From contig JADLHZ010000007.1 of assembly GCA_020848545.1 (NCBI GenBank), forward strand, positions 1-64,000: a DNA stretch of 64,000 bases, read 5' to 3'. The translations under genes and the position numbers were made by a program. Every line of letters starts with the position of its first letter. The first letter of the stretch is position 1. The notes beneath the pieces were generated by a model. That model was not told where the DNA came from. It worked only from the letters and a program-made list of their open reading frames with translations, and made no database searches. Below are positions 37,491 to 39,917 of the stretch, piece by piece. The DNA is from Deltaproteobacteria bacterium (GTDB lineage Bacteria > Myxococcota > JADLHZ01).

Positions 37491-39917
37491 TCAGGGATCG
37501 ACGAAAACCCGTGGTTTGTAGAACTTCGTCGCGTCGAGCTCGATGGGATCCAGGCGCACGGTCGCGTTGGCGGCGAGGTCGATCGTGCGTTCAGCGTGCG
37601 GATCGCCGTACGCACGCACGATGAGCTTGTGCGTCCCGGGCGCGACGTTGTCGAAGACGAAGCGGCCGTCGCTCTGCGTTTGCCGCGGCTCGCGGTCGTC
37701 GAGGATCACCATCGGCAACGGCGACGGTGGCGGACCATTGGTGACGACGAGCGAGCCCTCGATGCGAGCGCCTCCAGTGATCGCCACGCGGACGGTCGCC
37801 TCGCTGCCGCTCTCGACGCGTACCTTCGCGCTGCCGCTCGCGCCTGAGTCGGTCGTCACGCTGACGACGACCTCGCCGGCCGGCACGCCGGTGATCGCAA
37901 AGTCCGGCCCGGAGAAGCGGCGCTCCGGGCGCGGCTCGAACCACGGGTCGAACGACGCCGCCACGCTGACGATGATCGTCTCGCCGGCCGCGACGCCGCT
38001 CGCCACACCGCGCAAGGTGCCACCACGCAAGAGCTGAACGGGCACTTCCTTCGTGTCGCCGCTGGTGAGCACGATCGCCGCGCTTTCGCCGCCGAGCGTC
38101 GCGTGCAGCGTCACGGGATACTTCTTGTCGAGATCGATCCCGCGCACCACGCCGTCGTCATCTGCCGGCCACGACGTCACGTCGTTGAAGACGATCGCGC
38201 CATTCGCAGGCGTGCCGTCAGCGCGGCTGATGCGCAGCGTATGCTCGGTGCCGGCCCGCGTGGTGATCATGCCGCTGTTCAGATTGTCGGCCTTCACCGT
38301 GACGGGCAGCGGATGCCGCCAGGTTTGCTGCGTGGCCGAATCGCTCAGCGCCACGTGGTACGTCCCGGCCGGGAGACGCAGCGAAAGCGCGCCAGTCGCG
38401 TCGAGCTCGGCGACGCGCGACAGCTCGGGGAACCAGCCGCCGATCGACTCCGTGCGGTTGAAGTGAACGTAGCGGAAGCTGCGGCCCTCGACGGCGCGCA
38501 CCTCGAGCTGCGCCTGACCGAAGCGCGCCATTGCGATCTTCAACGGCGCGCCGGCGACGTGCTCGAGGGTGTCGCTCGCGAGGATGCGCGAAGTGGGCCA
38601 GCCGCGCGCGCGGTCGGCTTCGCTGTCTGCGCCGGCATCGAAGATCGCGTAGCGGTTCTGGCCGAGCGGGATCACATCCGGCAGCTCGGCGACGCCCTCG
38701 GCGTTCGTCACTGCCTGCGTGTGGCGGCCGTCGGGACGTCCGATCATGACGACGAAGCCTGCGAGCGGGCGGCCGAGATCATCGCTGAGCTCGGCGCGCG
38801 CTTTCTGCGACTGGCGGAACGTCAGCTCGGAGAAGAAAGAAGCGCCTGCGGCGACGCTGATGCCCTCTTCCGTCGGCGCCGCGAGCCAGCCTTCGCGCGT
38901 CGCCGCCACGTCGTAGACGCCTGGCGGCAGATCTTCGGCGCTGAAGGTGCCATCGGGTGCAGTGTCGAGGTGCTTCGCATCGCCGTGCTCCGGCGTGACA
39001 CTGATCGTCGCCTTCACCGGCTTGCCGTCGTGATCGCGCACGCGGCCGTCGATGCGGGCGAGCGCCGGATTCGCCATGGCCTCGCGCGCGACGATCGCCG
39101 GCGCGTCAGCGGGCCGCAGGGCGGTCACCAGCACGCGACGCGTCGTCGGCTTCGGATCGTCCGCCGGCTGCGGGTCGGGCAAGAAAGATGCGAAGGCACC
39201 GACGAGCGTCAGCAGCACGAGCGCCGCGACGAGCGCGACCTTCGCCGTCAGAAACTTCGTCAAGGTGAGCGCCACCGGCGCCGCCGCAGCGCTCGCCCGC
39301 ATCGCTGCCAACACGAGCAGCGCGAAGCCCGCGACCGGCGCCGACTTCTTCGCCGCGGCTTCGATCGCGTCGAAGCGATCGCGCAGGATCTCTCGCGCGC
39401 GTTCGAGCCTCTTGCGGACGGCGGCAGCGCCGAGATCCAAGAGCCGCCCGACCTGCTCGCTCGACTTGCCTTCGCGGTAGTAGAGCAGGAGCAGCTCGCG
39501 TGCGTCCGCCGGCACGTCGTCGAGGGCGGCGTAAAGCTTTTCATACATCGTGCGCTCGTCGAGCGCCGCCGACGCATCGCCGGCCGCCACGGGCTGCAAC
39601 GTTTGAAAGCCGTCCTCGCGGCGCGCGCGGCGCTTGTTCTGGCGCAGCTGGGTGAGCGCCTCTTTGCGCACGAGCTGCAAGAGCCACGGGCCGAAGCTCT
39701 CCGGCCGGCGCAGCTCCTTCAAGTGTCGCCACGCCGAGACGAAGGCGTCTTGGGCGACGTCTTGGCTCCAGCTCGCGTTGCGAACGATCGCGAGCGCCAC
39801 GGCCGAGACGGCGTTCTGATAGCGCTCGATCAGCCGAACGAAGGCCGGCTCGTCGCCACGCTGGGCCGCGCGCACGTCGTCCGTGAGATCAAAGGTAAAA
39901 GCAGCGGCAGCGTTCAT
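37491..39917 (-). CDS. ECF sigma factor fused to membrane and surface domains
   Basis: An 808-residue fusion. Residues 14-95 are sigma region 2 (VRLIERYQNAVSAVALAIVRN, SQDVAQDAFVSAWRHL), and 125-180 are region 4 (LLLYYREGKSSEQVGRLLDL, AAAVRKRLERAREIL). Two hydrophobic helices at about 193-213 and 226-246 follow. Residues 250-808 are beta-rich, with carboxypeptidase-regulatory-like or CNA-B repeats (ARIDGRVRDHDGKPVKATISV, DGTFSAEDLPPGVYDVAATREG, DGRFVFDNVAPGTHKLIVRA). Two helices would put the beta part back in the cytoplasm; if only the second spans the membrane, it is periplasmic and acts as a sensor. The ATG follows a GGAGGAG ribosome binding site. The downstream lipoprotein gene is 13 bp away. 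Confidence 0.9.
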   Translation of the reverse strand: MNAAAAFTFDLTDDVRAAQRGDEPAFVRLIERYQNAVSAVALAIVRNASWSQDVAQDAFVSAWRHLKELRRPESFGPWLLQLVRKEALTQLRQNKRRARREDGFQTLQPVAAGDASAALDERTMYEKLYAALDDVPADARELLLLYYREGKSSEQVGRLLDLGAAAVRKRLERAREILRDRFDAIEAAAKKSAPVAGFALLVLAAMRASAAAAPVALTLTKFLTAKVALVAALVLLTLVGAFASFLPDPQPADDPKPTTRRVLVTALRPADAPAIVAREAMANPALARIDGRVRDHDGKPVKATISVTPEHGDAKHLDTAPDGTFSAEDLPPGVYDVAATREGWLAAPTEEGISVAAGASFFSELTFRQSQKARAELSDDLGRPLAGFVVMIGRPDGRHTQAVTNAEGVAELPDVIPLGQNRYAIFDAGADSEADRARGWPTSRILASDTLEHVAGAPLKIAMARFGQAQLEVRAVEGRSFRYVHFNRTESIGGWFPELSRVAELDATGALSLRLPAGTYHVALSDSATQQTWRHPLPVTVKADNLNSGMITTRAGTEHTLRISRADGTPANGAIVFNDVTSWPADDDGVVRGIDLDKKYPVTLHATLGGESAAIVLTSGDTKEVPVQLLRGGTLRGVASGVAAGETIIVSVAASFDPWFEPRPERRFSGPDFAITGVPAGEVVVSVTTDSGASGSAKVRVESGSEATVRVAITGGARIEGSLVVTNGPPPSPLPMVILDDREPRQTQSDGRFVFDNVAPGTHKLIVRAYGDPHAERTIDLAANATVRLDPIELDATKFYKPRVFVDP

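Follow-up and report, generated by a model that had tools for sequence, protein, structure and literature searches.

How might a sigma factor be controlled when it is made as one chain with a membrane helix and a large array of beta domains? The question is raised by a gene on contig JADLHZ010000007.1 of a myxobacterial genome (Deltaproteobacteria bacterium, phylum Myxococcota, assembly GCA_020848545.1), of which we analyzed a stretch of 64,000 nucleotides, called the window here. The gene starts with an ATG at 39917 and continues on the minus strand as an uninterrupted frame of 808 residues to 37491. Its parts are the following.

37491-39917, minus strand: whole gene, a putative one-piece membrane ECF sigma factor of 808 amino acids (single open reading frame, Shine-Dalgarno GGAGGAG, Pfam)
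39369-39917, minus strand: sigma domain, residues 1-183, with region 2 at 29-97 and region 4 at 126-176 (Pfam, AlphaFold2, Foldseek)
39294-39338, minus strand: segment A, residues 194-208, a conserved helix just after region 4, probably non-spanning (conservation, hydrophobicity, model helix)
39183-39239, minus strand: segment B, residues 227-245, a predicted single transmembrane helix (Kyte-Doolittle 2.55, approximate dG -2.5, N-terminal anchor of relatives)
37494-39062, minus strand: outer part, residues 286-808, a CarboxypepD_reg/CnaB-like beta-sandwich array (Pfam, leave-one-out profile 155 bits, AlphaFold2, Foldseek)

The Shine-Dalgarno sequence, about 7 nt 5' of the ATG, is strong, and third-position G+C, taken over the frame as one, is high (0.87). 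Pfam recognizes Sigma70_r2 with 52.1 bits (curated cut-off, 24) and Sigma70_r4_2 with 35.1 bits (curated cut-off, 25.7), and the NCBIfam sigma70-ECF superfamily scores 74.5 bits against a cut-off of 42.9. Regions 2 and 4 are present and region 3 has no Pfam match in the 808 residues, the composition of an ECF sigma factor. Further along the chain, CarboxypepD_reg (PF13620) matches with 96 bits in four stretches, the best at 289-359 (curated cut-off, 32.3). An earlier note, made from the sequence alone, had described ECF regions 2 and 4 continuing in frame into two hydrophobic helices and beta domains, and the single open reading frame and the Pfam scores above cut-off bear out this in-frame join. 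The beta part, which it had put at about 560 residues, is nearer 525, with the domains beginning near residue 285.

Only about 45 residues separate region 4 from the membrane helix, and Pfam places no zinc-finger anti-sigma domain between the sigma domain and the helix. A Pfam scan of all 808 residues found no standard anti-sigma, FecR, or WD40 domain (at E<=1 for FecR and WD40), and the whole protein contains zero cysteines.

In the AlphaFold2 model, pLDDT is mostly above 90 in the sigma domain outside the inter-domain linker and low across 190-284; helices are placed at 164-191, 194-208, and 225-245, the latter two with low confidence. Foldseek matches the sigma part to SigW/RsiW, AlgU, and sigmaE. 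By target TM-score, SigW bound to RsiW is the best among the matches listed (0.64-0.68, versus 0.44 for the sigmaE initiation complex), a weak hint that the predicted sigma domain adopts a compact form. The outer part is modeled as beta domains that resemble CnaB-type pilin and adhesin domains; a check proposed when the locus was first described thereby came out in favor of a beta structure. Overall TM-scores are low, which is usual when several domains are strung on a flexible chain.

Is this architecture peculiar to one genome? We searched 195 genomes belonging to the same phylum for relatives, the first query being the window protein and the second a profile compiled from its relatives. Nine proteins, the window protein included, score above 200 bits, with alignments that extend beyond the sigma domain across both linker and membrane helix. 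The best match outside this clade, in the same profile search, reaches 128 bits, and its alignment breaks off about where the sigma domain finishes. That profile contained the window protein and was rebuilt without it as a control. In the rebuilt version, the window protein scored 177 bits and clade member L043, which had likewise been omitted, 201 bits, against 123 bits for the highest-scoring ordinary ECF among those tested. The sigma domain is thus found in frame with the same linker and membrane helices in the window genome and in eight other genomes of the phylum, two of which also carry a CarboxypepD_reg array after the sigma domain and helix (L029, 1098 amino acids; L030, 1114 amino acids), which answers the earlier suggestion to look for the same design elsewhere. 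Inspection by eye found no common neighbors among the genes around clade members. At L034, a second ECF-like gene (9839-11113, plus strand; 424 residues) lies head-to-head with the clade member. Scanning 84,980 species by short peptides taken from the window protein alone returned one ordinary Bacteroidota ECF only, and a tblastn search of plasmids gave sigma-domain matches only, covering at most 23% of the query among the matches listed.

Within the clade, the part beyond the membrane helix varies. L030 and L031 come from one genus, and their residues 1-183 are 87% identical (160/183). Identity then falls to 19 of 29 positions in the stretch 184-212 and to 7 of 22 in the membrane helix, after which there is no convincing alignment; the outer part of L031 contains cysteines and is unrelated to the beta array. 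In L032 (3209-4636, plus strand), a gene truncated where its contig stops, the ECF sigma domain is followed by a hydrophobic helix and then by a thioredoxin-like domain, whose match to Thioredoxin_4 (E 6e-4) stays under the curated cut-off. A large outer domain is lacking in L033, L034, L024, and L043, which instead show several hydrophobic helices; the C-terminal half of L043 (1383-2957, plus strand) contains a glycine-rich hydrophobic repeat, SLGLVSVGGAALGLFSLGG, along with its several membrane helices. The identities between L030 and L031, together with the differing outer parts, indicate that the sigma domain and the first linker segment are the constant unit, with exchanges of the outer part taking place around the helix. 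Sensors thus appear to have been swapped, to the point that in one genus nearly the same sigma domain bears an unrelated outer domain.

The beta half has relatives of its own. Against a profile built without the window, it scores 155 bits, compared with 29 for the best lipoprotein of the window and no match for shuffled copies, and it matches the stand-alone protein L070 at 1e-20 and L029 at 6e-20. Using a profile that included the window sequence, matches to the family were found in 84 of the 195 genomes at E<=1e-80, often in two or more copies. Among the best 30 loci, 28 are stand-alone and two are sigma-fused (L075 and L077). In 28 of these 30, the array comes immediately after a membrane helix; 26 of them are stand-alone proteins, with the helix near the N-terminus (for example, MKRNALVLVAVLAVLAVSGLWWAGR). 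The stand-alone exceptions without a clear helix are L091, which is cut, and L093, whose helix scores 1.44. Stand-alone proteins of the L070-L072 type likewise have a helix, a loose linker, and a beta array homologous to that of the window protein, but they have no sigma domain, their array is longer, and they often terminate in a PDZ domain. By homology, then, the beta half belongs to the single-anchor CarboxypepD_reg proteins of myxobacteria, a widespread family of envelope proteins that apparently has no name. One N-terminal anchor and a CarboxypepD_reg array, often with a PDZ tail, are found at L070 (6528-9380, minus strand), L072 (5322-8228, plus strand), L076, and L078-L104. The window genome itself holds a further relative of the beta half, L073 (G000:C84, 43937-46129; 439 bits), with one TGA in the aligned stretch.

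On which side of the inner membrane does the array lie? The earlier note had worried that two helices would return the beta part to the cytoplasm. Two hydrophobic stretches do exist, at 195-213 (Kyte-Doolittle 1.84) and 227-245 (2.55), but only the second looks membrane-spanning, both by hydrophobicity and by the stand-alone homologs with their single anchor, which largely settles the matter. It is also the only one that scores as spanning (dG -2.5) on an approximate insertion scale written for the present analysis. The hydrophobicity of segment B is 2.4-2.6 in the window protein, L029, L030, and L031 and weaker in L032 (1.3). In segment A, P194, V202, and A204 are invariant among six members and F199 is mostly conserved; it is probably a short conserved helix that does not span the membrane. 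Homology of the beta half to the single-anchor proteins weighs most in deciding the topology. By the positive-inside rule, an N-terminal anchor preceded by positive residues puts the following domains outside the inner membrane. Since a membrane helix stands directly before the domains in nearly all of the best family loci (28/30), the beta array is most likely exported, and in the fusion the sigma domain would stand where a stand-alone beta protein has its short cytoplasmic tail. We strongly infer a single pass, with the N-terminus inside, the C-terminus outside, and the array beyond the inner membrane; the thioredoxin-like domain of L032 and the Cys-containing part of L031, both after the helix, would fit a periplasmic location. 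The first proposal for this locus, a sigma factor made in one piece, tethered to the membrane and carrying the beta part on the outside, is well supported.

Two other readings concern the anatomy itself. If both hydrophobic stretches spanned the membrane, the array would be cytoplasmic, and segment A of the window protein is indeed fairly hydrophobic. However, the same segment in relatives reaches only about 1.4-1.8, under what is expected of a spanning helix, and contains prolines and serines; in addition, the array comes from a family anchored by one N-terminal helix, and elsewhere in the clade its position is taken by thioredoxin-like or Cys-containing parts. We regard this topology as improbable. 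Alternatively, sequencing or assembly could have joined two neighboring genes, a reading that would suit the single copy of the fusion gene in the window genome. The same in-frame join nevertheless recurs in eight other, independent genomes, where the outer parts are of more than one kind, and the frame needs no frameshift or internal start, so that such a join is very unlikely and we give it hardly any weight.

The surroundings of the gene bear on what the sigma factor might transcribe, and the following features lie upstream and downstream of it.

about 39939-39966, minus strand: candidate own promoter, GGTCACACTTT-N11-CGTCTG, 22-49 nt before the ATG (unsupervised motif search)
36233-37477, minus strand: downstream lipoprotein with a LIAC lipobox, starting with GTG 13 nt past the sigma stop (sequence)
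40270-42123, minus strand: neighboring lipoprotein with CarboxypepD_reg (Pfam, lipobox by eye)
42077-43951, minus strand: neighboring lipoprotein with CarboxypepD_reg (Pfam)
43948-45870, minus strand: neighboring lipoprotein with CarboxypepD_reg (Pfam)

An unsupervised, background-corrected search of the 110 nt upstream of clade genes finds a GTCA[CG]-type site in each of six independent members, at a distance of 37-69 nt upstream of the start, with a score of 87.3 versus 72.8-78.3 for 20 shuffles. Sets of ordinary ECF genes give similar scores, mostly with a different element, GTGAAC near -52; this control shows that the method finds such elements, without proving the candidate GTCA[CG] element functional. 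GTGAAC resembles known ECF -35 elements and is likely the autoregulatory -35 element of the ordinary ECF genes (upstream regions of L048-L063). If GTCA[CG] is read as the clade's own candidate -35 element, it would imply autoregulation, which we hold with moderate confidence. The window element, GTCACACTTT-N11-CGTCTG, is a small motif that, even when two mismatches are allowed, occurs nowhere else in the genome, which gives no basis for naming a wider regulon. Within the 64,000-nt window the promoter pattern occurs at or below chance, and we therefore claim no regulon. A search for words shared by the clade upstream regions yielded G+C-rich words only, no better than shuffles, and no sigma-70 promoter matches were found. 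Directly upstream of the sigma gene lies a small open reading frame of about 77 amino acids (39966-40202, minus strand). Its third-position G+C resembles that of coding sequence, it matches no family, and its stop overlaps the candidate promoter element. The three tandem lipoprotein genes farther upstream (40270-45870, minus strand) are related to one another (56-79 bits), each with a long C-terminal part, and may form an operon.

Altogether, we think it reasonably probable that the protein is a single-pass membrane sigma factor with a periplasmic beta sensor, released by proteolysis, which as a whole is the best explanation of the locus. The cytoplasmic ECF sigma domain (1-183) would be held at the inner membrane by the linker helix 194-208 and the transmembrane helix 227-245, and the periplasmic beta-sandwich array (about 285-808) would act as the sensor. 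In the resting state, tethering would keep the sigma domain from productive use by RNA polymerase, perhaps aided by the linker helix as a minimal anti-sigma element. A change in the envelope felt by the array might then bring a periplasmic protease, and after it an M50 (RseP-type) protease, to cut the anchor. The freed sigma factor would serve a narrow regulon. Among its targets would probably be the sigma gene itself, via the GTCA[CG] element, together with the lipoprotein gene that begins 13 nt past the sigma stop and is likely co-transcribed. M50 proteases are present, but they occur in every control genome as well; being near-universal, they are non-specific. The absence of a recognized anti-sigma domain between region 4 and the helix counts against the silencing step of this explanation.

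That same absence suits the main rival, which keeps the anatomy and topology and has the sigma domain active while tethered, signaled through the helix without cleavage in the manner of ToxR or CadC: there is no separate anti-sigma domain to remove. The short linker is also better conserved than the helix, and the multi-helix members without a large outer part (L033, L034, L024, and L043) fit a direct membrane signal and cleavage equally. However, published one-piece membrane ECFs have been read as activated by proteolysis (PMC8999054), and the recycling of holoenzyme at the membrane would be awkward. We judge signaling without cleavage to be unlikely, though it deserves to be taken seriously. 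It could also be argued that the protein serves mainly a structural or envelope role and that its sigma domain has degenerated or is only left over, given that the beta arrays of the family are mostly stand-alone. Yet both sigma regions exceed their curated cut-offs, and between L030 and L031 it is the sigma domain that stays constant at 87% identity while the outer part is replaced; a mainly structural role therefore seems quite improbable. We continue with the cleavage-released, single-pass sigma factor as the preferred reading.

The earlier note had implied an unprecedented design, which is too strong, as the literature already has one-piece membrane ECFs in ECF48, ECF52, ECF53, and IutY (PMC8999054, PMC5826349). 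ECF52 SCO4117 of Streptomyces combines an ECF sigma domain, a membrane helix, and an outer carbohydrate-binding part, and proteolytic release and autoregulation have been proposed for it (PMC5826349). The window protein is likewise one chain of sigma domain, membrane helix, and outer part, and it shares with ECF52, ECF53, and ECF48 the C-terminal membrane helix followed by an outer part, but it lacks their fused zinc-finger anti-sigma domain. In ECF52, a group found only in Actinobacteria, this domain precedes the helix, and the outer part of the window protein is instead a CarboxypepD_reg array. In Pseudomonas putida, IutY (ECF243) was shown to be activated by Prc and RseP cleavage of the fused protein (PMC8999054). 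It too joins a sigma domain to a periplasmic part through a membrane anchor, but IutY has its membrane-bound anti-sigma factor, of the FecR type, as extension and works in cell-surface signaling, whereas the window protein has no FecR match. ECF57 of the Planctomycetota shares a large, beta-rich C-terminal extension with the window protein; that extension, however, consists of WD40 repeats, proposed to serve protein contacts, and the window protein, which has no WD40 match, carries CarboxypepD_reg domains behind a membrane helix. Planctomycetota commonly have large ECF fusions. Our literature searches, whose journal coverage was incomplete, turned up no report of CarboxypepD_reg domains joined to a sigma factor. 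One-piece membrane ECFs were already known, and what appears to be new here is a make with exchangeable outer parts and without a zinc-finger or FecR domain.

It is tempting to go further and see in the clade a separate class of transmembrane sigma factors of the Myxococcota, a constant unit of sigma domain, silencing helix, and anchor that needs no anti-sigma protein or domain. We offer this only tentatively. The interchangeable sensors of such a class would be a beta array, a thioredoxin-like domain, a Cys-containing part, or a multi-helix membrane part. If the preferred reading is right, a single chain would combine sensing outside the inner membrane with the start of transcription, and no classical anti-sigma domain would be involved. 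L030 and L031 represent a natural sensor swap, which lets the silencing of a tethered sigma factor and the role of the outer module be tested directly. The clade also gives a handle on a widespread family of myxobacterial envelope proteins, with matches in 84 of the 195 genomes.
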